Below, piece after piece: positions 20,598 through 48,420 of a DNA stretch of 48,420 nt. The notes beneath the pieces are model-generated. The model was not told the DNA's origin. It did not search any database and worked only from the letters and a program-made list of their open reading frames with translations. Source of the stretch: Clostridia bacterium (GTDB lineage Bacteria; Bacillota; Clostridia; Christensenellales; UBA1242). The stretch is from NCBI GenBank assembly GCA_028709705.1, contig JAQVWL010000006.1, forward strand, positions 1 through 48,420. The letters run 5' to 3'. The position numbers were made by a program, and so were the translations under genes. Position 1 is the first letter of the stretch, and every line of letters begins with the position of its first letter.

Positions 20598-20792
20598 TTA
20601 TTGTTTTTCTAATTCTGCTTCCTTTTTTCTTATTTTAACTTTTTCTTCTTTGCTAGAAAACCCATACAGCAAATCACTTTCAAATGATTTTGCCAAGTCA
20701 AGTCCCATTTTAAAGCCTTGAACAACATTGATTTTGTCAACTGCATTTAAAACTTTTTCTTTTGTTGTTATTTTTTTGCTATATTTTGCCAT
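20598..20792 (-). CDS. Small basic/charged protein, coupled to upstream gene
   Basis: 64 residues, no recognised family. Lysine-rich N terminus (MAKYSKKITTKEKVLNAV), a central helix, and a charged Glu/Lys C terminus. The ATG lies inside the end of the VirB6-like gene (25-bp overlap in another frame), with AAGGAAAA just upstream, which points to translational coupling and equal expression. The next gene starts 7 bases downstream. A soluble partner of the membrane protein is possible. Confidence 0.65.
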   Translation of the reverse strand: MAKYSKKITTKEKVLNAVDKINVVQGFKMGLDLAKSFESDLLYGFSSKEEKVKIRKKEAELEKQ

Positions 20793-25431: not shown

Positions 25432-28400
25432 TCATTTGTTGTTTTTCTTGTTTTTTTCTTTTTCACGTGCTATTTGTTCTTCAAAACTTTTTAATTTATT
25501 AACTATAAGTTTTCTCTTTTTTGAATTGTTTATTTTGCCTGCTTTTATAGAAATAATAATTGAATATGTTATATATGATAAAATACAAATTGACACAGTT
25601 ATTACAACAAGGCAAAATGTTATTTTTTGAGTCATACTCCATTCTAAAATTACATCAAATCTTGAAAACAAATTAATATTTTCTGTTGCGGTGATAGTTT
25701 CTATTCTGTTTCCGTTTTCTAATGTATCGTACCATCCAATAAAATCGTATCTTAAATTGTTTTCTGTTGCCTTTGAGTCTGAAAACTGAGTTAAATCAAC
25801 AACTGTTAAATATTCTACATTTATTTCATATAAAAGATTTGTTCCTAGTTCATCATAAAATTTAATGTTATATATTTTTATTTCCCAATTAGCAATAGCA
25901 GTTTTGTTTTCAGCAAAAGTCCAAATTGTTTCAGATAAAATTTCAACACCATCTATTTCCCAATTTATAAAATTATAGCCAGTTCTTTCCAAGTTAGGTA
26001 AATCGCCAATTGGTGAATCAAACACAACTTCTAATGTTGTATTTGTATCTTGCGAATAATTGTTATCTAAAGTAAGTAAGTATCTATTGGCAGTGAAATC
26101 AGCAAAAAGCGTTAAAGTTTGAGTTGTATGATTGATAGTGCTAAAAGGTATTTCAGCAGTAAAAATAGTATCGGTATTTATCAAAGTCCCCGTATCTTCA
26201 CTATTGTTTTGTGGGTACCAGCCATTAAAAGTATATCCCAAATTATTAATTTCAGGCAAATTTGCAAGCGAGAAGTTTTCATTGTATATTATTGTAGTAG
26301 AATCGACTACAGTATCGTTGCTTGTGTCATAAAAAATTGTGTAAATGTTGGCAGTAAAGTCAGCAAAAAGCGTCAAAGTTTGAGTTGTATGATTAATAGT
26401 GCTAAAAGGTATTTCAACAGTGAAAATGGTATCGGTAGTTATCAAAGTCCCCGTATCTTCACTGTTGTTTTGTGTGTACCAACCATTGAAAGTATATCCC
26501 AAATCATTAATTTCAGGCAAATTTGCAAGCGAGAAGTTTTCCTTGTATGTTATTGTAGTGGAATCGACTACAGTATCGTTGCTTGTATCATAAAAAATTG
26601 TGTATACTTTGACAGAAAAGTCAGCAAAAAGGGTTAAAGTTTGAGTTGTATGATTAATGGTGCTAAAAGGTATTTCAGCAGTGAAAATGGTATCGGTAGT
26701 TATCAATGTCCCCATATCATCATTGTTATTTTGTGTGTACCAGCCATTAAAAGCATAACCCAAATTATTAATTTCAGGCAAATTTGCAAGCGAGAAGTTT
26801 TCATTGTATGTTATTGTAGTAGAATCGATAATAGTATCGTTGCTTGTATCATAAAAAATTGTGTATACATTGGCAGCAAAGTCAGCAAAAAGCGTCAAAG
26901 TTTGAGTTGTATGATTAATAGTGCTAAAAGATATTTCAGCAGTAAAAATGGTATCTGTAGTTACCAAAGTCCCCATATCATCATTGTTGTTTTGCGTGTA
27001 CCAGCCATTGAAAGTATATCCCAAATCATTAATTTCAGGCAAATTTATTGGCAAAAAACTCTCTCCAAAAATAATTGTAGTAGTATCGACTACATTATCG
27101 CTGTTTGCATCATAAAAAATCGTGTACACATTGGCAGTATAATCAGCAAAGAGAGTCAAAGTATGAGTTGTATGATTGATTGTACTAAAAGGGATATCAA
27201 TAGTAAAAATGGTATCAGTAGTTATTAAAGTCCCCATATCATCATTGTTGTTTTGCGTGTACCAGCCATTGAAAGTATAACCTAAATTATTAATTTCAGG
27301 AAGGTTTATAAGCGAGAAAGTATTGCCGTAGTTTATTTGAGTAGTATCAATGGTATTATCAGTATTTGTTTCATAAGTAATTGTATAAGTATAGCCAGTA
27401 AAGTGGGCAAAAATAGTTAAGGTTTGAGTTGTATGATTGATAATGCTAAATTGCAAATCAATAGTAAATGTCGTATCAGTTGTTATTAAAATTGCCGTAT
27501 CATCATCATTATTTTTCGTAAACCAGCCATCGAAAGTATAACCAAAATTTAAAATATCAGGAAGGTTTGCGGATGAGAAAACATCTCCATAAACTATTGT
27601 AGTGGAATCAAGAATGGAGTCAGTATTTGTTTCATAAATAATTGTATAAGTGTTGGCACTAAAGTCAGCAAAAAGAGTTAAAATTTTGTTTATATGGTTA
27701 ATAGTGCTAAAAGGAATATCAATAGTAAATAATGTGGCAGTAGTTATTTGTGTTCGCATATCATCATCGTTTTTGTGCGTATACCAGCCATTAAAAGTAT
27801 AACCCAAATTAACAACATCAGGTAAATTTGTAGACGAAAAATATTCACCATAAATTATTGTAGTGGATAAAACTGTAATACTATCTGCGTCATAAATTAT
27901 TGTATAAGTATCTCCCGTCCATTGTCCATATAGTGTAACGTCACTTGTTTTGTCCCAAGTTTTTAAACCTACCCCTGTATTTGTATAATATTGTTCACCG
28001 TTAGAAACAGCATCATAAATTCCGTTAAAATTGTTATAGTATAATCTTGTAGTGGTATTTATTGTTAAAACAGGCATATCGCTACCATAAGTAACTATAA
28101 CTTTGTAAGGACTAACATAACAAGTTTCTGAATCAAAAGTAATTGTATAAGCAGAATTTGTTGTTATAGTTGGAAAACCATCATTAAGAGTTGAATGAAG
28201 TGTCCAATATAAATATTCTTCACTTGGGCTAAATGCCACCCAAGCATTAAGAACATTGTATAAATTGTTGTAATCTATTCCATCTATTTGGACGTTTCCA
28301 CTAAGTGTTTGATTTTGGTTAAAAGAATAACAGTTTAACCCCGAATTTTGACCAAAAGGCAAAGTAGCAGTTCCAATTAACCAAAAACATTTATTAGCTG

Positions 28401-31400
28401 CGCCAACAACAACACGACCAGCTAAGCTACCAATATAGCAATCAGTACCAGTTGAAATTATTGTACCAATATTGTAGCAATTTTCAAAGCAATATCCATA
28501 ATCAATCAATGGTCCAACTTCGTTAAAATTTCCAATTATTCCTCCAACCAATAATGAGTTGCCATTAGCAATAATTGTACTTGTATTAAAACAATTTTCA
28601 ATAGAACTACCCCAATTGTAAAGATAACCTGCAATACCACCTACACTATCTTCCATAGAAGCATCAATACCATCATGATAAGTCATTACATAACCGCTGT
28701 TGCTACTATTAAAAACTTCAGCACTGTATCTTATTTGTCCTACAATACCCCCCACAGCTCCTTTGCCAACAACAATTCCATTATTTGAACAGTTTTCAAC
28801 CCTTGCCCCACCAAGCAAGTCTTGTCCATTTGCTCCGACCAAACTACCGACCCTGTTAAGACCTATAACACAAGTATTTGTAAGTTTTGTATTTGAAATT
28901 GTACCCATAAGATTGACACCAAAAAGACCTTGATTTGAAAGAGCAATATCATTAATGTATAGACCACTAATAACAAAATTATTGCCATCAAAATTTCCTG
29001 AAAAAGTATATGTTAAATTCCCCATTGGAGTCCAAGTGTTTAAAGTTCCACCGTAACTACCCAAAGTTCCTGTTTGGTTGATATAAAAAACACCGCTTAA
29101 ACTTGGAGTGGTATCGAAACTTGTATTTAAACCAGATGGATCCCCTTTAATTCCCGTTCCAATGTAAGCAGTATTAACACCATCGGTTACTCGTATTAAT
29201 CCTGTATCAATATTAAAAGTAAAGGTTTCGTCATTCATTTCTATATTTGCAGTAAGTTTATAAAAAGCTTTACCATAGGTTAAAGTGCCTTCAATAATTG
29301 TGGAATTGTAAGAATTTATGTATGTTTGCATTTGTATTAATTCTTCTAAATTTGATATTGTAAAAGGATTTTCTTCTGTGCCAAGACCAGAAGGTGCAGT
29401 ATCCCATACAGCATTAACAGTAAAATCTTTTAGTGTCAAAGTTGACAAACTAGGGTTGATAATTCCAGTGTTGTCAATTATTTGGGTTTCTTCTCCTGTA
29501 TCACTTGCCAAAGAATAATAACCCCCAAAAGTAGAGCCCTCTTTTGTTGGTAACATAGATATTTGCGTAAAAGTCGTTGTACCCGCTTCATCCAAATAAT
29601 AACTACCATTATACATAAAGAAAAATTGAGAAATGTTTGATGGTGTGGTAGGAGATTGGTCGTTTAGAGATACTTTAAATGTAGGTGTTGAAGATGTTAA
29701 AGAAGGTTGAGCGGTTCTTGTCCAATACATATATGTGTTGGGTGCTAGTAGGTTAAACAAAATGGGTGCATTGAGTGCATCGTATAATTTTGTAAAACTA
29801 TAAGTTTTGTCTTGATTGACAAAGTCAGACGTATTTCCATTAACAAAAGTGAACTCTAAGCTAAACTCTAAGCAATTTACTGACTCTGTCCAACCGCTTT
29901 GGTAACCAATTCCAAGCGCTGCAGACCCTGTTAACCAATAACAATTTTCCACAGCAGCACTATTGTTACCTACAATAGCACCACAGTTTGTAGAACCTTG
30001 AATTATTCCCGTATTATAACAGTTATATGTTTTTGCAAATTGTCCAAAATTATATCCCACAATCCCGCCAATATTACCACTTCCAATTATTCTCATACTA
30101 TTATGACAGTTTTCAATAATACCTTCATTATTATATCCTAATATTCCGCCAACAAAACCATCAACATTAATATAACCTTTGGTTGTTCTTACGTTAATTA
30201 TTCTTGCAAGATTTTCTATGTCATCACTACTAACAAACCCAAACAACCCTTGATACATAAACGTATTGTTTGCTATATAAATTCCACTTATTTGAAAACC
30301 ATTGCCGTTGAATGTTCCCCTAAAAGAATTACCACTTTGATAATCGCCAATAGGTATCCAAGAAGTTAAATTGGGGGTATCATAATTCCAACTTGTCCAA
30401 TTTTCTGTGTTTGCTCCATTTAAATTTATATTGTCTACTAAAACATAGTGCAATGGACCATAAATTGGATTGGTAGAAATATCATTGACAATTTCAGACA
30501 AAGAAAAGAGTTGAGTTGAATTATTTATTTCAAAGGGACTAGCACTAGAGCCATCTCCACCATTAAAAATATTTTCCCACACTGCAAAAAGGTCGTATGT
30601 GCCATTTTGACCAACAGTTGAAAAAATCACATTTATTGTTTCGCTATCAATAATTTGTTCATCACTATATACAATCTCACCTTCCGAAATTGTTGCCCAG
30701 CCACAAAAATATTTACCCAACAATGAGTAATTGTTTTTTGGTAAGGTTACATCAATGTCATTGGTTGTTGTTAAAATGTTCATAAAACCATCAGCACCAT
30801 TTGCATTGAAAATAATGTTGAAAGAATTTGCTTCCCAATTTGCATACAAAACAATAGTTCCATCACTAATAGCGTCAGTAATGTTTACCAAGTAGGGAAC
30901 TGAATATGTTGTGTTTAAATCCAAATAAGTTGAAGTATTTCCAACTTTCCAAGAAACTAGAGTGAAACCCTCTTTGGTAAATCCACTACTTTGAGTAGTT
31001 ATTTCGTCACTGCTAGTTACAAATTCAGGATCCAAACTTCCCTGCCCTGTATTGTTGTTATAGGCTATTGTAAAATTGTTATCTATTTGAATATAGGAAT
31101 CTGCATATTTGTTGTCAAAATAAGTTCTAATTTGAACAAATCCTTGAGATATACCTTTTAGATTTCCATTTGCGTCAATTTCTACAAATTCTGAACCGGA
31201 AATTATTTTAGTATTAGCACTTATTTTATTTAGGTAATAAGTTGCTGTATCTCCGCTATTGTAGGTTATATTATATGATACATTGCTTATTGTACTTCCA
31301 GCAGAACAATGGTAAATATCGCTGTTATCACTAATAGAAGTTGCCCAATCTAATTCTGTAAGATAATCCCACCAGTTGTTAGAAAATCCTTGAGAATCTC

Positions 31401-32517
31401 GACCAGCAACATGTGGCATAATAGAAAACCACCACTTTTTATGTGATAAGTTGTTCATATAATCCCATGTACTTAATCCCGACCAAGTTGTTTTATTGAC
31501 TAATTGTTTTTCGTTTGTAAGATTGGGATAGTTATATTTAAAATCATACCAAGAACTATACACATAATCGGTATTTTCCCATTGATAATCTTCATTGCTA
31601 TTAGGTGAAAAATGCACATTTCCCGCAACAGAAAATCCATTGCTTTTTAAATTATATTGAGAAAATTTATCCCAGGTGTTTAGATTATCAAATTCGGTTT
31701 GTGTACTAATAGTTGGTATGCTAATGTTCCAATTATCTTCAAATACTCTTTGCAAAGTGTACTCGGCTGAATGTCCTAAACATTCTAAATATGTTTCACT
31801 TCTAGGCAATGTTAAAGTCATAATTTGAAAGTTTTCACAATTTGCATAAAAAGTTTCGCCATTATCCCAATAGCCAGATTTACCAACAATAACAGATTCA
31901 TATACTCCAGATTCATTTAAATCACATAGCCAGACCATATCAAACTCATTGTTGTTTTTTCTTTCTATAAGATTAAAAGTATTGATTAAATAATTATAAT
32001 TAAAGTCACCGAAATCGTTTGGCAAATTCATTCCTATATCCGTTTCCCAATAACCGTACCAGCCATTTTCCATCATTTCTAGCCATGTTTCTTCGTCAAG
32101 ATTATAATATGTATTAGAACCATCAGACCTTGTTACTGTTTCATTATATGTTGGAAATTCGTTTAGCAATTCTTCTCCAACAATATTGATATTAACTTTT
32201 TCGTTTGAAATATAATTAAAATTAGATACATATTCATTTACTAATGTTGTATAATTTCTGTATAAAAAACTAGTATCAAATGATGCCAAATAATCACTTG
32301 CTCTTTCAGACTTCGAATTTAGCCAAGGGTCTATTCTTATAGTTAAAACATTTAATATTTTTGTTTGAATTGTTGAGTTGTTTAAAGAAGTTTTTGTTTC
32401 AGCGAAAACACTTTCGAGTAAATAAAAACTGTTATAATAATTTTTATTTTCTTCTAATAAAAAACTAAAACACAAAAATAATATTAGTATAATTGTAAAA
32501 ATCTTTATTTCTTTCAC
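25432..32517 (-). CDS. Giant surface protein with InlB-type and GLUG repeats
   Basis: 2361 residues. Residues 1-40 form a signal peptide-like segment. Residues about 60-395 are a domain I do not recognise, with CLGHSAEYTLQRVF (246-259) and SHKKWW (358-363). A Big_2-like immunoglobulin fold follows (about 407-478), then InlB/Listeria-Bacteroides repeats, two blocks of GLUG-type beta-helix motifs (for example GGIVGY, NCYNTG), seven tandem 87-residue InlB-type repeats (about 1535-2145, core LGYTFNGWYTQNN) and two divergent ones. A transmembrane helix (about 2290-2315) and a Lys-rich cytoplasmic tail end it; there is no LPxTG motif. Likely an adhesin or surface structural protein. The start is GTG with GAGGG 7 bases upstream. 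Confidence 0.88.
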   Translation of the reverse strand: MKEIKIFTIILILFLCFSFLLEENKNYYNSFYLLESVFAETKTSLNNSTIQTKILNVLTIRIDPWLNSKSERASDYLASFDTSFLYRNYTTLVNEYVSNFNYISNEKVNINIVGEELLNEFPTYNETVTRSDGSNTYYNLDEETWLEMMENGWYGYWETDIGMNLPNDFGDFNYNYLINTFNLIERKNNNEFDMVWLCDLNESGVYESVIVGKSGYWDNGETFYANCENFQIMTLTLPRSETYLECLGHSAEYTLQRVFEDNWNISIPTISTQTEFDNLNTWDKFSQYNLKSNGFSVAGNVHFSPNSNEDYQWENTDYVYSSWYDFKYNYPNLTNEKQLVNKTTWSGLSTWDYMNNLSHKKWWFSIMPHVAGRDSQGFSNNWWDYLTELDWATSISDNSDIYHCSAGSTISNVSYNITYNSGDTATYYLNKISANTKIISGSEFVEIDANGNLKGISQGFVQIRTYFDNKYADSYIQIDNNFTIAYNNNTGQGSLDPEFVTSSDEITTQSSGFTKEGFTLVSWKVGNTSTYLDLNTTYSVPYLVNITDAISDGTIVLYANWEANSFNIIFNANGADGFMNILTTTNDIDVTLPKNNYSLLGKYFCGWATISEGEIVYSDEQIIDSETINVIFSTVGQNGTYDLFAVWENIFNGGDGSSASPFEINNSTQLFSLSEIVNDISTNPIYGPLHYVLVDNINLNGANTENWTSWNYDTPNLTSWIPIGDYQSGNSFRGTFNGNGFQISGIYIANNTFMYQGLFGFVSSDDIENLARIINVRTTKGYINVDGFVGGILGYNNEGIIENCHNSMRIIGSGNIGGIVGYNFGQFAKTYNCYNTGIIQGSTNCGAIVGNNSAAVENCYWLTGSAALGIGYQSGWTESVNCLEFSLEFTFVNGNTSDFVNQDKTYSFTKLYDALNAPILFNLLAPNTYMYWTRTAQPSLTSSTPTFKVSLNDQSPTTPSNISQFFFMYNGSYYLDEAGTTTFTQISMLPTKEGSTFGGYYSLASDTGEETQIIDNTGIINPSLSTLTLKDFTVNAVWDTAPSGLGTEENPFTISNLEELIQMQTYINSYNSTIIEGTLTYGKAFYKLTANIEMNDETFTFNIDTGLIRVTDGVNTAYIGTGIKGDPSGLNTSFDTTPSLSGVFYINQTGTLGSYGGTLNTWTPMGNLTYTFSGNFDGNNFVISGLYINDIALSNQGLFGVNLMGTISNTKLTNTCVIGLNRVGSLVGANGQDLLGGARVENCSNNGIVVGKGAVGGIVGQIRYSAEVFNSSNSGYVMTYHDGIDASMEDSVGGIAGYLYNWGSSIENCFNTSTIIANGNSLLVGGIIGNFNEVGPLIDYGYCFENCYNIGTIISTGTDCYIGSLAGRVVVGAANKCFWLIGTATLPFGQNSGLNCYSFNQNQTLSGNVQIDGIDYNNLYNVLNAWVAFSPSEEYLYWTLHSTLNDGFPTITTNSAYTITFDSETCYVSPYKVIVTYGSDMPVLTINTTTRLYYNNFNGIYDAVSNGEQYYTNTGVGLKTWDKTSDVTLYGQWTGDTYTIIYDADSITVLSTTIIYGEYFSSTNLPDVVNLGYTFNGWYTHKNDDDMRTQITTATLFTIDIPFSTINHINKILTLFADFSANTYTIIYETNTDSILDSTTIVYGDVFSSANLPDILNFGYTFDGWFTKNNDDDTAILITTDTTFTIDLQFSIINHTTQTLTIFAHFTGYTYTITYETNTDNTIDTTQINYGNTFSLINLPEINNLGYTFNGWYTQNNNDDMGTLITTDTIFTIDIPFSTINHTTHTLTLFADYTANVYTIFYDANSDNVVDTTTIIFGESFLPINLPEINDLGYTFNGWYTQNNNDDMGTLVTTDTIFTAEISFSTINHTTQTLTLFADFAANVYTIFYDTSNDTIIDSTTITYNENFSLANLPEINNLGYAFNGWYTQNNNDDMGTLITTDTIFTAEIPFSTINHTTQTLTLFADFSVKVYTIFYDTSNDTVVDSTTITYKENFSLANLPEINDLGYTFNGWYTQNNSEDTGTLITTDTIFTVEIPFSTINHTTQTLTLFADFTANIYTIFYDTSNDTVVDSTTIIYNENFSLANLPEINNLGYTFNGWYPQNNSEDTGTLINTDTIFTAEIPFSTINHTTQTLTLFADFTANRYLLTLDNNYSQDTNTTLEVVFDSPIGDLPNLERTGYNFINWEIDGVEILSETIWTFAENKTAIANWEIKIYNIKFYDELGTNLLYEINVEYLTVVDLTQFSDSKATENNLRYDFIGWYDTLENGNRIETITATENINLFSRFDVILEWSMTQKITFCLVVITVSICILSYITYSIIISIKAGKINNSKKRKLIVNKLKSFEEQIAREKEKNKKNNK
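26090..27911 (-). repeat. Seven tandem 261-bp coding repeats
   Basis: Seven in-frame units of 87 codons encode InlB-type repeats with the core LGYTFNGWYT. The units nearest the C terminus (low coordinates) are almost identical in DNA; those at the N-terminal end have diverged, which indicates recent expansion from one side. Antisense ORFs of 172 and 195 codons here are by-products of the repetition. Confidence 0.92.
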
Positions 32518-38322: not shown

Positions 38323-38565
38323 CTACTTGTCGTCAGTTTTTTCATTGTTTTGATTTTGATTTTCTTGCTCGGCGATTGTTTGAACTGGCTTTTCAACCAC
38401 GCCCAAAACTACTAACACACCGCAAAATCCCATTATAAGTCCGTTTATTATCTCTTCTGAAACTTCAAAATTTAAAGCACTTCCAAGAGTTTTTAACAAA
38501 ATAACTAGCGAAGCAGAAAGTGCAACCCAAAATTTATAAGATTTTATTCTGTCTTTTAATTTCAT
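38323..38565 (-). CDS. Phage holin, phi-LC3-like
   Basis: 80 residues. Two hydrophobic segments (about 11-30 and 40-58) separated by a short polar turn, a charged N terminus (MKLKDRIKSYKFWVALSAS) and a hydrophilic Gln/Asn/Glu tail. This is the pattern of phi-LC3-family holins, which make lesions in the membrane to release the lysin. It is the last gene of the phage module, and no lysin gene is adjacent. Confidence 0.8.
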   Translation of the reverse strand: MKLKDRIKSYKFWVALSASLVILLKTLGSALNFEVSEEIINGLIMGFCGVLVVLGVVEKPVQTIAEQENQNQNNEKTDDK

Positions 38566-38567
38566 TG

Positions 38568-38786
38568 CTACTCCCTATTTTGCTTTTTGTAAAGCAAATT
38601 GTCTTTTAGTTCCTTGACATCTTCTTTGACATCTTCTATTGTTTCAAGTTGAATAGAAAGTTTGTCAATAATGTCAATATATCTTTTTTCTCGATTGGAA
38701 CTGTCTTTGAGTTGATAAAACAAAAGCCACACAAAAAGCCCTGCAAATATTCCGTTAGAAATTGCTATTTCTATTAAATTTTCCAT
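38568..38786 (-). CDS. BhlA/UviB-type holin-like protein
   Basis: 72 residues. One hydrophobic segment (about 8-24, ending FVWLLFYQLKDSS) followed by a charged helix (EKRYIDIIDKLSIQLETIED), the layout of BhlA/UviB holin-like peptides of Bacillus and Clostridium phages and plasmids. It starts 2 bases upstream of the second holin gene, so the two probably work together in lysis. Confidence 0.8.
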   Translation of the reverse strand: MENLIEIAISNGIFAGLFVWLLFYQLKDSSNREKRYIDIIDKLSIQLETIEDVKEDVKELKDNLLYKKQNRE

Positions 38787-38810
38787 ATTTTATTTTAACC
38801 AAACACAAAT

Positions 38811-38903
38811 TTATTTTTTTGATTTTTTTCTTTTATAATATAAAATATTATTAAAGATTAAATTTTGCATTTCTTTTGTAAAAATTTGATTTTTGCCTGT
38901 CAA
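38811..38903 (-). CDS. Small ORF of 30 codons with perfect Shine-Dalgarno
   Basis: Reads MTGKNQIFTKEMQ, then a Leu/Ile/Asn/Tyr stretch and the basic tail YYKRKKSKK. The TTG start overlaps the stop codon of the gp10-like gene and follows GGAGGTGAT, which is fully complementary to the 16S rRNA 3' end, at an ideal distance. The otherwise unexplained 113-base gap supports a real small gene. No family is recognised; the peptide is basic and could be membrane-active. Confidence 0.45.
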   Translation of the reverse strand: MTGKNQIFTKEMQNLIFNNILYYKRKKSKK

Positions 38904-40387
38904 TCTATCACCTCCAAAACTAATTTGGGCGGAAAAATTTTTGCTGTTCCGCTTGAAGTTATTTGAGTTTGAATTTCATAACCTTTGACAAAAACTTTTA
39001 TTTTTTGGATTTTTGAACTGCCCACAATGTTAAAACTTTTTTCTTCTAAATCAGTCTTTATTGTAAGCACACAATCATTATATGATTTTATGATAACTTG
39101 TTTAACAAGTTTCAATTTTTCGGGGCAGTCTAGATTTGTCAAAGTTGAAGACCATTGACTGTTTAAAGGTGTGTCAAAAATTTTGCCAGAATTGTCAAGC
39201 TTTGCAAAAGTTTTGCTATGCTCATTATAAAAACTTGCAATAACCGTTGACAAACTTCCTTCATTAAGACTTAAAATCGAATTTATGTCAACACCCCTTG
39301 TAATAACAAGTTCGTTTGTTTCAAGGTCAAGCGAAAGTAATGCGTTGTTTTTGTAACTGACTACATTTTCGCAACCAATTTTGTTTGTGTCAAAAAAATT
39401 TAAACGACAAGCAACAAAATATTTGCCATTGTTAAAGCAAGCAACTGCTTTGTTGTTGTCTATCACTTCAAACATTTTGCTGATGTTAAGGTTATATTTT
39501 TTTGTGGTCGAACCATTGAAAGAATATAAACCATTTTTTGATAAAAACACAATTGTGTCGCCACATTTTGTAACTGTTTCACCAAATATTTTGGAACTTG
39601 TTTGAAACAAATCGCTAACGCTAAAATCGCCAGAAACACTATATTTTGAAACTTTTGTTATGCCAAAATCTCTAAATATGTAAAGGTAGTCATTAAAATT
39701 TATCAAAGAACAAAGCGAACCGCGGTCACCTGTCAAATCTATTTTTGTTTCGGTCGCTTGCCAAGTTGTTGGGTTGAGATTTGAACTGTAAAAAAGTGAG
39801 TTTCGGTCGCCTTCCAAAATTGCAAAAAGATTGTTATAAACCACACACATTTTGACAAATTTTGCACAGTTAGGATTGTAATGTGCAAAAACATTTTGAG
39901 ATAGCGAATACATACCCGCATCATAAGAAAACAACATAAAGTCGGTATCTTCATAGCGGTAATTTGCTCCAACAGGTTCATCTGCAAATGCTGGCAACGA
40001 ATTAAACTCATAGGTGTTTGAATCATAAGTGAAAATGTTTATTGTTGCCAAATATCCGTTTCCATTAAACCACATAAGTTTGTGTTGTCTTGTTTTTGTA
40101 TAAGGGTCAAAAAACTTAAAATGCCACAATTTTTTTATGTCGCAATCTTGATTTATTCTTATATTTCTGTTTATTACTGCACCATCATAAACAGGAAGTT
40201 TGAGGCTAGAAAAACCATAACCCGTTTCCAAAATACCGTTTGTGCAATTAAAATTGTAGCAAACAGTTGTTTGATTTTCGGGCATAATTGAAGCGTCATC
40301 ATCTGTGTTTATGTTGATATTTAGTTTGTTGTAAGTCAAAGTTTTTTTGGTGGTTTTTTTTGTTTTTATGGTATTTTCATAAAACAT
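38900..40387 (-). CDS. Phage beta-propeller-like protein, P22 gp10-like
   Basis: 495 residues with repeated beta-strand patterns (for example YLYIFRDFGITKVSKYSVSG and IVFLSKNGLYSFNGSTTKKY) typical of the packaged-DNA stabilisation proteins of podoviruses related to P22 gp10, which plug the portal and connect to the tail. The N terminus is Lys/Thr-rich. AAAGGAGG lies upstream of the ATG. The position after the connector-region genes fits a tail-attachment role. The assignment rests on fold pattern and position. Confidence 0.55.
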   Translation of the reverse strand: MFYENTIKTKKTTKKTLTYNKLNININTDDDASIMPENQTTVCYNFNCTNGILETGYGFSSLKLPVYDGAVINRNIRINQDCDIKKLWHFKFFDPYTKTRQHKLMWFNGNGYLATINIFTYDSNTYEFNSLPAFADEPVGANYRYEDTDFMLFSYDAGMYSLSQNVFAHYNPNCAKFVKMCVVYNNLFAILEGDRNSLFYSSNLNPTTWQATETKIDLTGDRGSLCSLINFNDYLYIFRDFGITKVSKYSVSGDFSVSDLFQTSSKIFGETVTKCGDTIVFLSKNGLYSFNGSTTKKYNLNISKMFEVIDNNKAVACFNNGKYFVACRLNFFDTNKIGCENVVSYKNNALLSLDLETNELVITRGVDINSILSLNEGSLSTVIASFYNEHSKTFAKLDNSGKIFDTPLNSQWSSTLTNLDCPEKLKLVKQVIIKSYNDCVLTIKTDLEEKSFNIVGSSKIQKIKVFVKGYEIQTQITSSGTAKIFPPKLVLEVID

Positions 40388-40960
40388 TTAGTTCCACCTC
40401 CTTTCCCTTAATCTTATATTTGATTTTTTGCTTATCGCATTAAAAATTCCGTCTTTAAACTTTTTTTCCCAAATATCAGCGGTCGAATAATCCTCATTAA
40501 GCAAACAAAATTTTCTTGCAACACCACTTGCCAAAACTTGTGGCAAGACTTTTCCGCCAAACATATTTACGCTGTCTTCCAAGTCAAAATCTTGTGGAAG
40601 ATAACTATAAACAAGGTCCGCTCTGCTTACCAAAGCTTTGACATAAGAAGGGAAAAGTTCATAAGCAAGATGATTGCCATTTTTGCTTGTAAGTTTGTGG
40701 ATTTCCAAAATTTGATTTTGCAGATTTGCAAATTCAAACTTGCCATTTACAAATACAATTTCTTCTTCAAAAAACAATGGCAAATAACTTGATGCCACTT
40801 CTTTGTAAATAAAATTAAAGCATTTTGTTAAAAGATTTATGTCATTTGCTTGCTCCGTTGTTGGTGCTGTTATGCTTTCGTCATCAAAACTTGTTGTTGT
40901 CAAAAGTTCTTTTTTGTTTAAAAACAAAACTGCAATTTTTAAAATATTCTTAACTGTCAT
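40388..40960 (-). CDS. Phage head-tail connector-region protein
   Basis: 190 residues, Leu/Phe/Asp-rich and mostly helical by composition, ending NAISKKSNIRLRERRWN. No family named with confidence. Its position between the capsid-proximal 102-residue gene and the gp10-like gene, and its size, fit a tail accessory factor such as P22 gp4-type adaptors. The stop codon is directly followed by the next ATG, indicating tight coupling. Confidence 0.55.
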   Translation of the reverse strand: MTVKNILKIAVLFLNKKELLTTTSFDDESITAPTTEQANDINLLTKCFNFIYKEVASSYLPLFFEEEIVFVNGKFEFANLQNQILEIHKLTSKNGNHLAYELFPSYVKALVSRADLVYSYLPQDFDLEDSVNMFGGKVLPQVLASGVARKFCLLNEDYSTADIWEKKFKDGIFNAISKKSNIRLRERRWN

Positions 40961-41265
40961 TTTAATACCTCCTTTGCTAAACTAAAAATTTCTTTGTTTT
41001 TTTGTGTTTCTTTTTTTTGATTTTCTTTTTCAATTTCTTCCATCAATTTTTCAAAATTTTTTGTTTGGGTTTTTCGCACCAAGTCCAAAGTTCTGCTATC
41101 AAGTTCCGCAAAAGGCAAACTCAAACAAAAAGTGTTGTCAAGTTGCCCCTGGTTATGAACTTCAAAATTTTGGGATTTTGTGTTAAAAACAACAAAATAA
41201 TTTGGGTCAATTTCTTTTAGTCTTTGTGCAACAAAAAAATTGTCTGTGTTTATGTTAATTAACAT
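40957..41265 (-). CDS. Conserved phage protein downstream of capsid gene
   Basis: 102 residues. A compact first half (LKEIDPNYFVVFNTKSQNFE, then LPFAELDSRTLDLVRKT) and a charged coiled-coil-like second half (KLMEEIEKENQKKETQKNKE). Proteins with this layout occur after the major capsid gene in clostridial phages; the function is unknown. Overlaps the start of the 190-residue gene by four bases. Confidence 0.65.
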   Translation of the reverse strand: MLININTDNFFVAQRLKEIDPNYFVVFNTKSQNFEVHNQGQLDNTFCLSLPFAELDSRTLDLVRKTQTKNFEKLMEEIEKENQKKETQKNKEIFSLAKEVLK

Positions 41266-41287: not shown

Positions 41288-42616
41288 TTATGGAGTTGTG
41301 TTTGTAGCAATAGTGCCTGTGTTGGTTGCCGTTGTTGCGGTATTTGTAGCAATGCTTGCAGTGTTGGTTGCAACAGTATCAACTGCTGTATCTACGCCAC
41401 TGATTGCCGAAACAATGCTTGCATAAGGGCTTGCAATAGTTGCACTAATGTTAGAAATTTTTGCTTGTGCAATTGGTCTGTCGCAAATAAGGTCTGCATA
41501 TTTGACCAAAGTTGCGTTGTATGTTGGGTAACCCGCAACTTGTTTTATCACTCTGCCATCTTCGCCTTCAAGCCATTGCCAATCGCATAATTGATGTAAA
41601 ATAAAATCTTTTGTGCTTAACAAATACGCTGTTCCGCTTTCAATAAATCTGTCTGCAACCACAGGAATTCCGTTAAAGGTAATTGCCTTAAACCCGCCTG
41701 CAAGTTCCATAACATCAATGTTTCTTTTGTAATTTGCCAAGTATGTTTGATATGCTTTTCGCACATCTTTTGAACAAGATATAAAGTCAACTTCGCTTCC
41801 CGCCTTGTCTTCCAAAGCATCAATCGCGTCTTGCAAAACAATGTCAGATATTTCTGTTCCACTTGAATTGTGGTGCGGTGTTAACCAAGGGTAAGCCGTT
41901 CTGCTTAAACCATATAAATCTTGCGAACCAAAAATTGCTTCAAGACCTGTTATTTCATTGCCTTTTGAACCTTGAACATACAAGTTTGCACCCAAAGCAA
42001 GTTCTGGGCTTAATGTCAAATTTTCAGGAAAGTTAAAATAAACAAAATTTTGCGTTCTGTCTACAAAAGTTATGCGGTATCCGCTTACATTTGTGTTTTT
42101 TACATCGCTTGTAAAAATGTCTACAACCATTCCTTCAATAAGATTTCTTGTGTCTGAAACTTCTAAATAATTTCCGCTTGCAAAACTTGCGGTCGTTGTT
42201 GCCAACAACCCCGTTCCATCGCCATAAATCATTCTGCCAAGATTAAAACTGCTGGCCTTGATAAGACCTTCCATTTCATCGTTTAGCAAATTTACAAAAG
42301 CACCTGCGTTGTTTTCTGATGCCCTAATTGCCTTGTCGGAAATTTCTATTTTTCCATAAAGATTTTTTAAGGTTGTTTTAAATTGAACATATTTGTTGCT
42401 TGCTGCTGTTGGTAAAGCACCATCTTCTGTGCCTGCGCCAATGCCACCATTTATTCCATAAGGTGCAAGTTTTACAATATCTTTGCCCCAAATATTTGCA
42501 CTTGATTGCTTGATTTTGGCAAGCAAAGGATTTGCGTTTATGTTTAATTGGTTTGCAACAACGCCCAAATAAACACTTTTTAGTGCTGCTTCTGCACTTG
42601 TTAAAGTAACTGCCAT
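41288..42616 (-). CDS. Phage major capsid protein
   Basis: 442 residues, by position and sequence the major coat protein, probably of the HK97 fold. It begins MAVTLTSAEAALKSVYLGVV; the TTLKNLYGKIEISDKAIRAS segment and the central Asp/Tyr-rich region fit coat proteins. Residues about 405-442 form an unusual low-complexity tail of heptapeptides (ATNTASI, ATNTATT, ATNTGTI), possibly displayed on the capsid surface. AAGGAG precedes the ATG, and the scaffold gene lies 15 bases upstream. Confidence 0.82.
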   Translation of the reverse strand: MAVTLTSAEAALKSVYLGVVANQLNINANPLLAKIKQSSANIWGKDIVKLAPYGINGGIGAGTEDGALPTAASNKYVQFKTTLKNLYGKIEISDKAIRASENNAGAFVNLLNDEMEGLIKASSFNLGRMIYGDGTGLLATTTASFASGNYLEVSDTRNLIEGMVVDIFTSDVKNTNVSGYRITFVDRTQNFVYFNFPENLTLSPELALGANLYVQGSKGNEITGLEAIFGSQDLYGLSRTAYPWLTPHHNSSGTEISDIVLQDAIDALEDKAGSEVDFISCSKDVRKAYQTYLANYKRNIDVMELAGGFKAITFNGIPVVADRFIESGTAYLLSTKDFILHQLCDWQWLEGEDGRVIKQVAGYPTYNATLVKYADLICDRPIAQAKISNISATIASPYASIVSAISGVDTAVDTVATNTASIATNTATTATNTGTIATNTTP

Positions 42617-42631: not shown

Positions 42632-43078
42632 TTATAAAAACATAGTACTTACAATCTCTTTTGCTTCTTCAAGACTGGTAGGTTTTGGTGGAGTCTTTAA
42701 CGGTATTCCACTTCCTATGTTGCTTGAAATAACTTTGGGAGATTGATTTTTTTGAAGTTCTTCTAAATATGCTTTTAGCAAAGTGTCTTTCAATTCTTGA
42801 TTTGAAGAAACAAACTCTGCCAAAGTTTTGTCATTTTTTATAAGTTCTTCGTGGGTAGGTTGAGTTGGCTTTTCGTTTTCAAGTTCACTCAATTTTTGAC
42901 ACTTTCTGGTAAATTCGGCCTGCAAATTGTTATAGGCACTTAACAAACTTTCGGTGTCTTTAAATTTTCCTATGGAGCCATTTGAAGATACAGGGGTAAC
43001 ATTTTCATTTTCTTTTACTTCCGTAACATTTACTTGTTCTTCATTTGGTTGTTCCATAATTGTTTGATTATTTTCCAT
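42632..43078 (-). CDS. Phage scaffolding protein
   Basis: 148 residues: an acidic, Asn/Glu-rich N-terminal half, a coiled-coil stretch (SLLSAYNNLQAEFTRKCQKL, then NQELKDTLLKAYLEELQKNQ) and a proline-containing C terminus ending TSLEEAKEIVSTMFL. Scaffolding proteins guide coat assembly and leave the head before DNA packaging. It is immediately upstream of the capsid gene, the usual place. Confidence 0.75.
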   Translation of the reverse strand: MENNQTIMEQPNEEQVNVTEVKENENVTPVSSNGSIGKFKDTESLLSAYNNLQAEFTRKCQKLSELENEKPTQPTHEELIKNDKTLAEFVSSNQELKDTLLKAYLEELQKNQSPKVISSNIGSGIPLKTPPKPTSLEEAKEIVSTMFL

Positions 43079-43085
43079 TTTTTTT

Positions 43086-43190
43086 CCTTTTATTTTTTTT
43101 AATAAATAAATAATTAATTAAAAATAATTGTTTTTTTATTATTTTTTATTAAAATTAATTATTTTTTATTTATTTTTATTATTTTTTAAT
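43086..43190. repeat. Nearly G/C-free tract between portal and scaffold
   Basis: About 100 bp with almost only A and T, made of TTTTTATT/AATTAATT-type repeats. No gene. It resembles the tract at 36824-36885. It includes the region around the portal stop codon. Confidence 0.8.
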
Positions 43191-44946
43191 TACATATTTC
43201 ATAAATATTATTATTTATTTTTGTTTTATGATTTTTTATATGTTGCAATATTTTGATTTCAAGGTTTGGATTTTTTTGATTTTGTTTTTCAAATTCATTA
43301 CCCAACATAAAACTTATGTGCTCATTTATGTGAATTTGATGGTCATCAATTTCCAAAATTTTTGGGTCTTGATTTTCCAAAAACAAAAAATTTTCTTTTG
43401 ATGCTTTGTTGGTGTGAAGTTCATTCAAGTCTTGTGCGTTTTCCCAAATTCCAAAACCCAAAAGTTCCAAAACTTTGACTTTCATTCGGTTTGTCAATTT
43501 TCCATTTTCGTCATTCAAAAGTCCATTGTTGAGCAAATCAAAAATCATTTTTTTGTTTTGCGTGTAAGAGTCTGTCATTTCATTTTTTGTTTCAAACACA
43601 ATATCGTCAGAAGATATGTCGCTTGAAGTAAAATAAAACATTTCCATTTCTCCGTTGTCGCCAACAATTTTTGTAAGTTTGGGAATTTTTACAAATTGTT
43701 TATAAAGTCTTAAAATATGTTTGCCTATTGTTTTGATTGCAGATTTGGTATTGTCAGAAGTTATGTTTGTTTTGTTTTCGTCTTGTTCAATAATCAACTC
43801 TAATGCTGTACCGCTTAAATTTCTTGTTGAATAATTTTCACTTGACAAATCTGTTATTCCACTTATTGAAACAAATTCGTCCAAAATTGATTTTTCTTCT
43901 GCGGTAAAATCATAAGGCATTTTATCGTTTTCCATATATTTGGGCGAGGTCGAACCTTGGCGATAAACCAAAACTTTGCCGGGGCAAAGTCCATCTTCTT
44001 CCAAATTTTCTATATCAACCGAACCATCTTCAACCGCCAGAATACCCATAGAAATTCTGTTCAAAAATTCGTGTTTGCGATTTTTTACTGCATTGTAAGA
44101 GCGTTGAAGAGGTATCAATCTTTCTACCAAACTTGTACCCCAAAAACAACCCGCTTGTGAAAAAGCATCTTGCTTGATAAACGGAAAAGTTCTTGTATTG
44201 TCGTTGCAATTTGTATATGGTAATTCGCCCACAAAAAGCAATTTGTTTTTTGCAATTATTATCAATCTGCCATTTGGATATTTCACGCTTGGTGCTTCAT
44301 ATTTTTCCACCACAATTGCATAATCTTTTCTTACGCTTTTCAAAACTTTGGTAGAACTTCCCATTCCCAAAACGCTTGAATGACTTTTGTCAAGTGTAAA
44401 AATATTGATATCTTCGCCTTCAATTTCAACGCCCCATTGATTTTTTATTTCTTCAATATGGTAAGCCCTTGCGTGAATAATACTTCTTGAATTTTGAATA
44501 TCGCTTGAAGAAGAACTTTCAGGAAAAATTTCAAAAGACGAAACTGCTGTGATTTCCACATCGCCAGATTTAAGTGGAACACCGCTTTCTAGTTTTGCCA
44601 CAACATTGCCCAAGTTTGTGTTCCAAATAACCTTATAAAAACCACTACCACAAATTTCACTCCATTTTGTTGCTTCCATAATAATGTTGCTCATATCCGT
44701 TTTGTTGTAAATTGAATTGATAATTTTTTTGGATATTTTTGCAGTTTTTATGTCCCCGTCATTGTTAGAAGCGGGAAAAACATTCATTTTGGGTCTTACT
44801 TTTTGAAGTTTTGAAAGTCGCCTTTCAATGATTGGTAAAATATGATTAAAAACTTCTCGCTCTTGCCAAAAATATTTTTTTTCATACTCGTCAATTTCTC
44901 CATTTTTTCTTATGTCGCAATATTGATTGCCCATCAAAAAGTTCAT
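43186..44946 (-). CDS. Phage portal protein (frame open from internal ATG)
   Basis: 586 residues from the first ATG downstream of an in-frame stop codon. The dodecameric portal is the channel through which DNA enters and leaves the head. Typical segments are MNFLMGNQYCDIRKNGEIDE, FNHILPIIERRLSKLQKVRP and LSENYSTRNLSGTALELIIE. The homologous frame continues 132 bases upstream (see 44947-45078), so this ATG is only an internal methionine and has no Shine-Dalgarno. If translation starts here the protein lacks about 44 N-terminal residues; otherwise the gene is a pseudogene. Confidence 0.82.
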   Translation of the reverse strand: MNFLMGNQYCDIRKNGEIDEYEKKYFWQEREVFNHILPIIERRLSKLQKVRPKMNVFPASNNDGDIKTAKISKKIINSIYNKTDMSNIIMEATKWSEICGSGFYKVIWNTNLGNVVAKLESGVPLKSGDVEITAVSSFEIFPESSSSSDIQNSRSIIHARAYHIEEIKNQWGVEIEGEDINIFTLDKSHSSVLGMGSSTKVLKSVRKDYAIVVEKYEAPSVKYPNGRLIIIAKNKLLFVGELPYTNCNDNTRTFPFIKQDAFSQAGCFWGTSLVERLIPLQRSYNAVKNRKHEFLNRISMGILAVEDGSVDIENLEEDGLCPGKVLVYRQGSTSPKYMENDKMPYDFTAEEKSILDEFVSISGITDLSSENYSTRNLSGTALELIIEQDENKTNITSDNTKSAIKTIGKHILRLYKQFVKIPKLTKIVGDNGEMEMFYFTSSDISSDDIVFETKNEMTDSYTQNKKMIFDLLNNGLLNDENGKLTNRMKVKVLELLGFGIWENAQDLNELHTNKASKENFLFLENQDPKILEIDDHQIHINEHISFMLGNEFEKQNQKNPNLEIKILQHIKNHKTKINNNIYEICN

Positions 44947-45096: not shown

Positions 45097-45393
45097 TTAA
45101 TTTGCGGGATTATTTTCATTTAACAAAAGCAATAACGCATCTCGCTCTTTTATAAGTTCTTCATCGGTCATATTTTCCAACTCATCAAAAGCCTTGTCGC
45201 CATAATAAGCAAGCAATGCCTTTATTGCAGAAACATCGGGCGGATAATGTTTTGTTACAACCTTTTTTTTGCTTGAACATTTTTCGCCATTTTCGTTGTA
45301 ATTTATTTCTTCCGTTGTTTCTTCGGTGTTGTAGCCAACTGCTTTCTTTATTAATGCCTTTTCGACTTTTTTTTGATTGGAGTTTTGCTTCAT
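45097..45393 (-). CDS. Phage packaging-region protein, possible small terminase
   Basis: 98 residues: basic start MKQNSNQKKVEKALIKKAVG, a Glu/Asn/Lys-rich middle, then KHYPPDVSAIKALLAYYGDK and an acidic helical end. The sequence resembles small proteins adjacent to terminase genes in clostridial phages, which may be small terminase subunits recognising DNA for packaging; I cannot confirm this by motif. It lies 18 bases upstream of the portal gene and would normally follow the large terminase. Confidence 0.55.
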   Translation of the reverse strand: MKQNSNQKKVEKALIKKAVGYNTEETTEEINYNENGEKCSSKKKVVTKHYPPDVSAIKALLAYYGDKAFDELENMTDEELIKERDALLLLLNENNPAN

Positions 45394-45413: not shown

Positions 45414-45450
45414 AAAAAACCCACAAAGTTTTTAAAAACCTTGTGAGTTT
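45414..45450 (-). terminator. Terminator of prophage-borne surface-protein gene
   Basis: Stem AACCCACAAAGTTTTT / AAAAACCTTGTGAGTT; on the minus strand the stem ends in GTGGGTTTTTT. It lies between the surface-protein gene and the 98-residue phage gene, so the surface-protein gene has its own end of transcription. Confidence 0.85.
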
Positions 45451-45507
45451 ATGATTTGATTATAGATTAAAAAATTTAAACTTGATAAAAAAAGTGACAA
45501 ATATTTT

Positions 45508-47670
45508 TTAGTAGTAGTTCAAAAAACTTTCGCGTTTGACTCTTTTGGTAATCAAAACAACTACCAAAACAACAAGCCCAGTGCCACCAAGCCCGCCAAG
45601 AATAGCCCAAAGCCAAGTCAAGTCAGTGTTTTGACTTGCGTTTTCGGTTATGTCAATATACAAAACAAAATCTTCGGCAACTGTTAAGTTTAAAGTCGTT
45701 GAGTTTTCGTTTTCAGTTGTTGCAATAAATCTTGATAGATTTACACCCGCATCGGTCTGCCATTTTTTGAAAGTAAAGCCCTCTTTTGTTTCTATTCTTA
45801 TTTCAATGGGAACGCCCACCTGTACAGACTCGTTAAAGTCATTTAGCCCCAACATTCCGTTTATGTATAGATTGAAACTGTCTTTTTCTAGCAAAGAAAC
45901 TATTTGTAAATTGCACACATTTTCGCTAAAATTTGCTTGAATTGTAAATGTTATGTTGCCAGAAGTGTCTGTTGTAAATGGAATTGTGCTGTTATTTGAA
46001 ATTGTCAAATATGTTTTTGTTGTGTCTGTTCCTGTTATTCCAAAACAAATGTTGATTTGTCTGTTTGCGTTAAGAGTGCTAGTTGCTCCGCCCCTTGTTG
46101 CAGGTAATAAGTCATTTTCAGAATTTAGCCACGCCCAACTTGAAAAAGCAAACGAACTGCTAATTGGGTCTGCAACAAAAGTATATTCCCCGCCATAAAC
46201 GATGTTGTAGGTAATTGAAGCTTGCGAAACTGAACTGCCATATCTAACTTTGCCCTTGTTAATGCTTTCGGATATAACTTGAATTTTGTATTGAATGTTT
46301 TCAGTTGTTGCATAAAACGAACCGGAAGTGTTATAGCAAACAACAAAATCATAAGTTGCAATTTGATTGTTTTCGGCAAAATCAAAATCTAGTGTTTGGG
46401 TTGAACTGTTTTTTACTATTGATTTTATAACTTTGTAATATGCGTAATTTGGATTGATTTCGGCAGTTATTTTCAAACGAGTGCCATATTTAAAAGTGCC
46501 TTCGCTTGCTATATTAACAAAATCGGAACCCGTCCACTCACTTAAAGAACAGGTGGAAAAAATCCCACTAGTGACTGAATCAATGTTTATTGAAAAGTTT
46601 TCAAAAACTTGCAAAACAGGGAACGAACTTGCATTTGTTTTGCACCAAACACTTGAAGTGTTCCAAACAAATTCATAATTCCACATAAGATTTCCACCCA
46701 ACATATAAGTTTCGGCAAAATTTAACATATCACCAAACTTTGCTTTTTCCAAAACTGAAAAATTGGTTTCTGTGTATGCGTTGTTTTTATGCCCAACAAA
46801 ATTTTGAGTTGCAGAGTTATAAGTATAACAAAAAGACAAATTGTCGGCAGAAAAATCATTGACTTGACCAAAGATTTTGCCCGCATATAATTTTGTCAAT
46901 TCTGCTGTTGGAGTTGTAATTGTGCCACCGCAAAAAATGTTTGAAATTTGACCTATCGCACCTTTGACCGCACTGCCAACAAAACCGCCAACAGCAAACA
47001 AGTTGCCTGAACTTGCCAAAGTTGTTTGAACTTCGACCATTTTTGTGCTTGTTGGAACAGAATAGCAGTTTGTTATTTGCGAATTTTCCATTGCCCCCAA
47101 AAAGCCACCAACAATAGTTTCTATTGAGTTGTTTGTTTGTGTTAACAAAATGCTAGAATTGGTATAGCAGTTGTTTATTATTGTTCCATCAAAAACTTTG
47201 CCAATAAAGCCACCAACATTGGCAGAAGTTTTTACTGTTACTTCAACATCACCTTTGGTAAAAACATTTTCAATAAAACTAGCCCTTGCTTCTTGTGCCA
47301 AAAAACCAAAATTGGAATTGACATTTATAAGGTCAGTTGTGTCAAAGATATAAGTTTCATCAATAATTATTCCCAAATTTTTTATGGTTGCGGTATCAAC
47401 AATGGCAAACAAGTTGGTTTTTAGGGTGATTGTGTAACCGTTTCCATCAAGGGTTGCACCAAAATTTATTGGCGTCCATTCTTCCAAAACTATATTTTCT
47501 TCCAAAATATAAACAGCGGAATTGCTGTCAGAAAAACTTGAAGAAAAGTTGTCATTGGTTAAAGAAAAGATAGGGGTATCTTCTGCTTTGGCATTTTGAG
47601 TGTTAACAAAAAAACAAGGCAAACTGCACATAGCAAAAACAAAAGCAAAAAAGCAAAAAAGTTTTTTCAT
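45508..47670 (-). CDS. Secreted, membrane-anchored GLUG-repeat surface protein (phage moron)
   Basis: 720 residues. Signal peptide MKKLFCFFAFVFAMCSLPCF with probable cleavage after AKA (about residue 28). Residues about 50-340 form a right-handed beta-helix-type region with GLUG-like motifs (VGGFIGKVFDG, VGGFLGAMENS, VGGFVGSAVKG). Residues about 355-660 are beta-rich, with an InlB-repeat-like EGFTFKKW near the end. A transmembrane helix (LWAILGGLGGTGLVVLVVVL) and the basic tail TKRVKRESFLNYY close it; there is no LPxTG. It lies between terminase and portal but has its own promoter and terminator, so it is probably expressed in the lysogen. ATG at 47670 follows GGGAG; an upstream in-frame TTG is unlikely. 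Confidence 0.88.
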   Translation of the reverse strand: MKKLFCFFAFVFAMCSLPCFFVNTQNAKAEDTPIFSLTNDNFSSSFSDSNSAVYILEENIVLEEWTPINFGATLDGNGYTITLKTNLFAIVDTATIKNLGIIIDETYIFDTTDLINVNSNFGFLAQEARASFIENVFTKGDVEVTVKTSANVGGFIGKVFDGTIINNCYTNSSILLTQTNNSIETIVGGFLGAMENSQITNCYSVPTSTKMVEVQTTLASSGNLFAVGGFVGSAVKGAIGQISNIFCGGTITTPTAELTKLYAGKIFGQVNDFSADNLSFCYTYNSATQNFVGHKNNAYTETNFSVLEKAKFGDMLNFAETYMLGGNLMWNYEFVWNTSSVWCKTNASSFPVLQVFENFSINIDSVTSGIFSTCSLSEWTGSDFVNIASEGTFKYGTRLKITAEINPNYAYYKVIKSIVKNSSTQTLDFDFAENNQIATYDFVVCYNTSGSFYATTENIQYKIQVISESINKGKVRYGSSVSQASITYNIVYGGEYTFVADPISSSFAFSSWAWLNSENDLLPATRGGATSTLNANRQINICFGITGTDTTKTYLTISNNSTIPFTTDTSGNITFTIQANFSENVCNLQIVSLLEKDSFNLYINGMLGLNDFNESVQVGVPIEIRIETKEGFTFKKWQTDAGVNLSRFIATTENENSTTLNLTVAEDFVLYIDITENASQNTDLTWLWAILGGLGGTGLVVLVVVLITKRVKRESFLNYY

Positions 47671-47691
47671 CTTTTCTCCCAAATTACTTTT

Positions 47692-47719
47692 ATTATACCA
47701 TATTTTAACAAAATTACAA
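47692..47719 (-). promoter_or_regulatory. Promoter of prophage-borne surface-protein gene
   Basis: TTGTAA (47714-47719), 16 bp, TATAAT (47692-47697) on the minus strand, about 21 bases before the ATG. The -35 box overlaps the stop codon of the terminase gene. Confidence 0.75.
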
Positions 47720-48420
47720 ATAATTTCGACCTTTAATTTTTCTAAAAAGCATCTCTTTGTTCTTTTGAATAATTGATTTTTCAGGTTTTATTGGTTTAAT
47801 ATTTTGTTTTGTCATTATATAATATCGAAGTTCATCAAGTGCGTGGTCATCTTTTTTTGTTGGCAAGTCGTCATTACCCCAAAAATAACCTTTGATTTCC
47901 CTTATCAAATTAACACAGTTTTTAAAAATATATAATTTGCTTTCACCTTGTGCATTTTTTAGAAAACTTTTTACTCTGTTTATTCCCGAAAACAAATCTT
48001 TGTTTACTTTTGTGTTGCAATTTATCCCAAAATCGAAAAAAAGTTCTACAACTGATTTTGTTCCGTTCAAGGTTCGCTGTCCCGCCGCCGAATCAATAAG
48101 TGCATCAATTTTTCCATTAAACCCCTTTTGCCAACCCAACCTTTCGCAAATATTTTTTATGGCGTTTGAATGATATTCCACACTTTTGCCCGCCTCATAA
48201 TGCTCTGCAACAACAAAAACATTTCCATCAAAATCGGTTGCATACCAATGTGCTGAAAGCGGATTTTTTAAGCCCGGGTCTATTGAGATTTTCTCATACC
48301 ACTCGTGCGGAACGTCAAACGGCGTAATTACATTACCATTTTCATCAAACTCGCAATACACTTGCCCGCCATTGTTTACAAACTTTCCATAACGCCGACT
48401 TTGCAATTCTTCTTCCGACA
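47714..48420 (-). CDS. Phage terminase large subunit, C-terminal part
   Basis: The frame is open to the window edge, so only the C-terminal 235 or so residues are visible. They form the RNase H-like nuclease domain that cuts concatemeric DNA during packaging: first acidic residue in SIDPGLKNPLSAHWYATDFD, second in DALIDSAAGQRTLNG, third in KDDHALDELRYYI. The ATPase domain must lie beyond 48420. The stop codon overlaps the promoter of the inserted surface-protein gene. Confidence 0.9.
   Translation of the reverse strand, partial: SEEELQSRRYGKFVNNGGQVYCEFDENGNVITPFDVPHEWYEKISIDPGLKNPLSAHWYATDFDGNVFVVAEHYEAGKSVEYHSNAIKNICERLGWQKGFNGKIDALIDSAAGQRTLNGTKSVVELFFDFGINCNTKVNKDLFSGINRVKSFLKNAQGESKLYIFKNCVNLIREIKGYFWGNDDLPTKKDDHALDELRYYIMTKQNIKPIKPEKSIIQKNKEMLFRKIKGRNYL

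Follow-up and report, generated by a model that had tools for sequence, protein, structure and literature searches.

We propose, as the probable reading of this stretch of DNA, that a gene for a host-type surface protein, transcribed independently of its neighbours, is lodged between the terL and terS genes of a domesticated locus of the GTA kind, which it may serve from the side of the cell. The window, i.e. the whole stretch of 48,420 nucleotides analysed here, makes up all of contig C6. The genome, of 0.92 Mb and 99.5% completeness, is assigned to UBA1242, a genome-reduced family of Christensenellales (PMC13155120). The original prediction had recognised an autonomous transcription unit for a host-style surface protein within a set of packaging genes and had called it a moron, through which a phage equips its lysogen. 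As detailed below, the autonomous unit and the host style of its product find support, and the promoter is kept in related loci; the moron and its lysogen do not survive comparison with relatives.

Across the loci we compared, the core gene order is activator, tandem-SH3 membrane protein (on the opposite strand), terL, the surface protein where present, terS, portal, scaffold, capsid, tail and holins. Features of the window and of related loci are collected in Table 1. The part of terL that lies on contig C21 encodes the Walker A motif GGNRSGKTE and the Walker B motif FVWFDEEP. Across the family, and also in some other members of the order, the region upstream of terL encodes a putative late activator (phrog_248, sigma-70 region-4 domain) and, divergent from it, a membrane protein whose SH3-type domains stand in tandem. 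Beyond the holin-like genes the window continues with the host genes deoA, tsaE, tsaB and rimI. One genus of the family has two adjoining major capsid protein genes (L036:8035-10379, genome G008).

Table 1. Features of the capsid-and-packaging locus and its surface gene; positions refer to the window unless a locus or contig is named.
Feature	Position	Strand	Remarks
terL, C-terminal part	47714..48420	-	remainder on contig C21; a 211-bp overlap with C6 joins both parts into one open frame
Extended -10 sigma-A-type promoter of surface gene	47692..47719	-	TTGTAA-N16-TATAAT (TGn); -35 overlaps terL stop
Shine-Dalgarno of surface gene	47676..47680	-	GGGAG, 5-9 nt before ATG
terL-linked surface protein gene (720 aa)	45508..47670	-	signal peptide, GLUG beta-helix, Ig/B-repeat-like domains, C-terminal TM, tail SFLNYY
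Intrinsic terminator of surface gene	45417..45450 (about)	-	15-bp stem, then T-run
TerS-like protein	45097..45393	-	phrog_309
P22-like portal protein	43186..44946	-	
Putative scaffolding protein	42632..43078	-	position, small size, conservation; no family match
Major capsid protein	41288..42616	-	phrog_14242
Conserved small module protein	40957..41265	-	phrog_17018
Head-tail connector candidate, conserved	40388..40960	-	position and conservation
Virion structural protein, podovirus-like tail candidate	38900..40387	-	phrog_3287
BhlA-type holin-like protein	38580..38789	-	PF10960 on homologue
Holin-like protein	38323..38565	-	phrog_297 on homologue
Activator/tandem-SH3 pair	L030:6531-7877 and equivalents; activator G000 C21:1871-2407		conserved upstream of terL
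Alternative surface protein	L030:3554-6220, L032:15372-17936, L029:14227-16755 and relatives		roughly 560-910 residues; NHL- and SH3-like matches
Intracellular protein family	L022:3053-6969, L018:7314-8534, L023:14758-15867		370-440 residues

The open reading frame of the surface gene runs from a TTG (45508-47682, reverse strand), the ATG at 47670 being the likely start. The signals that had been predicted for it are all in place: its own Shine-Dalgarno, its own terminator and its own promoter (47719-47692), in which the -35 hexamer contains the TAA stop of terL (47714-47716) and the TATAAT occupies 47692-47697. The terminator hairpin has a minimum free energy of -18.1 kcal/mol (z = -6.25; none of 200 shuffles was equally good), was absent from the list of a simple terminator scan, and is matched by a hairpin plus T-run 3' of most copies of the gene in homologous loci. 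As to position, the gene does stand among packaging genes and behind terL, as predicted, but not directly before the portal gene, since the TerS-like gene intervenes.

An extended -10 promoter of the same type precedes 25 of 35 homologous surface genes, as against none of 103 terL, none of 183 portal and none of 177 major capsid protein genes and one of 143 terS genes. Because the background frequency of the motif in the same DNA is 0.5% per 230-nt stretch, the promoter is more than a chance occurrence. Note that the surface genes on which the motif was counted had in part served to define it and that some of the loci are nearly identical to others, and we therefore use the result as a contrast between gene classes and attach no p value to it. 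Read in this way, it shows that the surface gene retains a class of promoter which hardly ever precedes any other gene of the locus.

What kind of protein does the gene encode? The AlphaFold2 model (pLDDT 82) agrees with a secreted, membrane-anchored product, as had been proposed: it has a signal helix (2-29), a beta-helix (about 35-360), more than one Ig/B-repeat-like domain and, at 689-723, a membrane helix. For the beta-helix the best structural match is to M26 IgA1 proteases (PDB 7uvk and 6xja; Z 26.6, rmsd 3.1 A over 262 aligned residues, 21% identity), followed by tailspikes and pectate lyases (Z about 13-14). The beta-helix is thus common to our protein and to M26 and GLUG surface proteins. 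Differences from the M26 enzymes lie in the C-terminal transmembrane anchor, the lack of an LPxTG and the protease domain itself: Pfam did not report an M26 catalytic domain, only weak matches to the N-terminal region in two of nine family members. The GLUG and InlB-like architecture that had been claimed was borne out in part, in that Pfam GLUG (PF07581) matches five of the nine members of the family and the model contains a beta-helix, but Pfam finds neither GLUG nor InlB in the window's protein itself. PHROGs assigned the protein to no family. The short cytoplasmic tails end in aromatic residues in 18 of the 19 copies that passed our filter; among 19 unrelated surface proteins encoded in these loci, one has such an end.

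Many host surface proteins contain GLUG beta-helices, and GLUG domains occur at nine places in the window's own genome, so that the description as host-style is apt. One of these several GLUG proteins is the giant protein encoded at 25432-32517 (2361 residues, with Listeria-Bacteroides repeats and one GLUG stretch), with which the surface protein had been said to share its architecture. The GLUG regions do align (BLASTP E = 0.004), but nothing beyond them does, and we reject the idea that the two are paralogues. Full-length relatives of the surface protein are found, among the genomes of the genus, only behind terL. Elsewhere in the window, at 20768-23170, an 800-residue protein with several membrane segments predicted by eye adjoins the ribosomal protein operon.

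The locus itself is found in nearly all of the family and again elsewhere in the order. The portal gene is present in 41 of 60 relatives, at one place in each (a few are fragmented), with identities of mostly 42-67% in the family and 43-48% in the order. It occurs in 127 of 147 genomes of the family, representing 39 of 40 genera and nearly always as one copy, and in just 24 of 291 genomes drawn from across the class. The portal tree resembles that of SecY (Mantel r = 0.79, permutation maximum 0.35; 16 of 28 splits in common), as does the terL tree (r = 0.69). For the major capsid protein r is 0.60 and, within the family alone, 0.39, which is inside the permutation range. Because the capsid and terL trees agree less well with SecY than the portal tree does, there may have been some exchange among lineages. 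Within the window's genus, rpmA/OGG flanks the locus upstream and deoA-tsaE downstream; the open reading frames between these flanks are module genes, gap genes and short frames that lack an assignment, and no integrase or replication genes were seen among them. Values of dN/dS are low throughout (portal 0.033, major capsid protein 0.040, terL 0.042, tail protein 0.040). In four genomes of another Clostridia family (L048-L051; G120, G173, G281 and G219) we observed a lone portal homologue with 37-39% identity and a conserved context, near which neither terL nor a major capsid protein gene was recognisable.

The locus thus shows the genomic features by which GTAs are recognised: clustered packaging, capsid and tail genes of phage origin, a site free of genes for integration or replication, a single, near-universal copy inherited vertically with the host (with weaker congruence for the capsid protein) and purifying selection. 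Because it is single-copy, near-universal, congruent with SecY, identically flanked within the genus and under purifying selection, we conclude that it is best understood, on comparative grounds, as a domesticated, vertically inherited, GTA-like capsid-and-packaging locus and not as an active prophage.

The original prediction had assumed the opposite, namely that the module belongs to an active temperate prophage and that the surface gene is a moron supplying the lysogen with an adhesin or a receptor-masking (superinfection-exclusion) protein. A promoter and terminator between genes of a phage operon are indeed what defines such a cassette, and a cell-surface topology would suit it. However, neither carriage by an active or temperate phage nor variable presence among close relatives of that phage is what we find, and besides the single-copy, host-congruent occurrence at a fixed place in the genus, terL lies 40-100 kb away from terS-portal in several genera, a separation not easily squared with a viable prophage. 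Phage databases point the same way. The best match to the major capsid protein in the phage collection has 30% identity, and nothing closer was found there. When the portal and the surface protein were each searched singly against IMG/VR, there were no matches; an alignment search returned 86 contigs, most of which resemble chromosomal fragments of the same locus, and true phages came up only once portal identity had fallen to about 33-43%. The viral-contig records among our loci (L188-L240) look like pieces of the chromosomal GTA-like locus and are probably false viruses. We consider the prophage reading very unlikely. Vertical descent might also be mimicked by a hotspot at which related phages integrate repeatedly, leaving remnants at the same sites, and the looser fit of the capsid and terL trees to SecY would accord with that; the missing integrase and replication genes, the intact frames under purifying selection, and downstream flanks that differ among genera while the activator-SH3 pair upstream is shared, make such a hotspot just as hard to credit. 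Least probable of all is that the gap gene encodes a virion component such as a tailspike. Its place among packaging genes and the occurrence of beta-helices in tailspikes would fit, but a signal peptide, a membrane helix and a conserved cytoplasmic tail would not; the closest structural match is a bacterial surface protein, the promoter is unlike that of any capsid gene, and the gene is missing from many otherwise complete loci.

If the surface gene is not a moron, how has it been inherited? A full-length homologue is present in six of the seven other genomes of the genus (32-44% identity), the seventh having a contig end near portal, and in two sister genera. In genera that lack the gene, about 435-730 bp separate terL from portal. 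The terminase-portal interval, whose comparison among relatives had been suggested as a check on the moron claim, does not reveal a sporadic cassette: presence of the gene follows the terL tree with four changes over 49 labelled rows (two of them forced by well-supported branches), compared to a mean of 16.5 in shuffled data. The trees of the surface gene and of terL agree closely (r = 0.87; 14 of 20 splits in common), and the gene stands directly behind terL in the linked clade, also where terL lies far from portal. It appears from this to have adjoined the packaging motor gene since very long ago. Its dN/dS of 0.15 indicates evolution about four times faster than that of the capsid genes, yet under constraint. 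The gene is nonetheless dispensable, because the locus persists in genera that lack it and because G435, a genome of a carrying genus, has lost it. In three members of the genus, one to three copies of a gene for an intracellular protein family stand between terL and the surface gene.

Loci without the surface gene often have another candidate for the cell surface. In 21 of 34 such loci a large protein is encoded divergently from and adjoining the activator gene. It measures about 490-1690 aa, contig ends truncating some examples, and in most cases has a signal peptide and a C-terminal membrane helix. It is missing from all 19 surface-gene loci whose flanks could be read (Fisher 4e-6, a value that does not reflect phylogenetically independent cases, as the non-overlap of the two proteins follows phylogeny). 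Most of these proteins, where tested, form one family unrelated to GLUG, which was not found in the window's genus. That it might be the same gene as the terL-linked one can be rejected, the profile showing no kinship. It is possible that this unrelated protein fills the same role in other lineages as a functional replacement.

As to what that role might be, the surface protein would be made in ordinary cells and not only in those producing particles, and would display its beta-helix on the cell surface independently of particle production. We are less sure that it serves the locus from there, on the cell side: most likely, particles of its own lineage would use it as a receptor or for attachment, although a recipient-side attachment factor, stated outright, remains a tentative reading to which we would not give even odds. 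Alternatively, and just as speculatively, the protein may protect against particles of its lineage.

The best rival to the attachment role is that the protein is perhaps no more than a retained host adhesin: a neutral or self-serving passenger whose gene landed once in the terL-terS gap and stayed there, with no tie to the capsid locus. This concerns the functional step only and leaves the GTA-like nature of the locus untouched. Imagine that an insulated unit, independent of its neighbours, had been drawn from the abundant and generic GLUG surface proteins of these genomes; its loss in G435 and its absence from sister genera would then come as no surprise. What such a passenger would not lead us to expect is that the gene should still follow terL after the cluster was split and should diverge along with it, that the genomes of the genus should hold no full-length relative elsewhere, or that loci lacking it should so often have another large surface protein. 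We regard the passenger as a substantial possibility, though not the one we prefer. The reading that we favour, a host-type gene serving the locus from the cell side, can be set beside systems already described.

Closest by description is FpGTA I of Faecalibacterium, a podovirus-like cluster of about 10.5 kb and about ten ORFs that includes TerS, TerL, portal, scaffold and capsid, lacks replication genes and is present in almost all of its host group (Borodovich et al. 2026, PMC12946183). In these respects it resembles the UBA1242 locus, but no surface-protein gene has been described for it. The sequences could be compared via proxy genomes only: among 394 genomes of another Clostridia order, standing in for the FpGTA hosts, the portal profile gave strong matches in few. 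One genus of that other order (3.1 Mb) has a ten-ORF terminase-portal operon of about 10.5 kb with a similar layout, placed between other genes (L321 8010-18541, L322 1408-12392), with only 21-26% identity to the window's locus in portal and TerL. The alphaproteobacterial GTAs, RcGTA among them, derive from another phage lineage and have another architecture, with siphovirus-like tails. They share with the UBA1242 locus a domesticated phage cluster, vertical descent and purifying selection, and differ in that the candidate cell-side factor of the UBA1242 locus is encoded inside the cluster; the receptor of RcGTA is a host extracellular polysaccharide (PMC10218006). With phage morons and lysogenic conversion genes the surface gene has in common the autonomous promoter-gene-terminator cassette among phage genes. 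Unlike them, it is not sporadic, is not carried by an active prophage and is inherited with terL over several genera.

GTA-like packaging has been reported from Christensenellaceae in faecal VLPs with no element identified (PMC12946183). The locus described here is a candidate gene cluster for such packaging, and with it the range of podovirus-like GTA-like loci comes to include an order of common gut bacteria with reduced genomes. A testable idea is also offered on a long-open question about GTAs, namely by what means a lineage ensures that its particles can still recognise their recipients. Put in its general form, which we think more doubtful than the attachment role in the window's own locus, the idea would be that GTA loci of Christensenellales encode their own cell-side partner, a dedicated surface receptor or adhesin that is expressed constitutively and travels with the gene for the packaging motor. 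This partner would come in two unrelated kinds, the terL-linked GLUG beta-helix and the activator-linked NHL/SH3-type protein, which replace each other. If this were true, two interchangeable kinds of surface protein would determine who exchanges DNA with whom.
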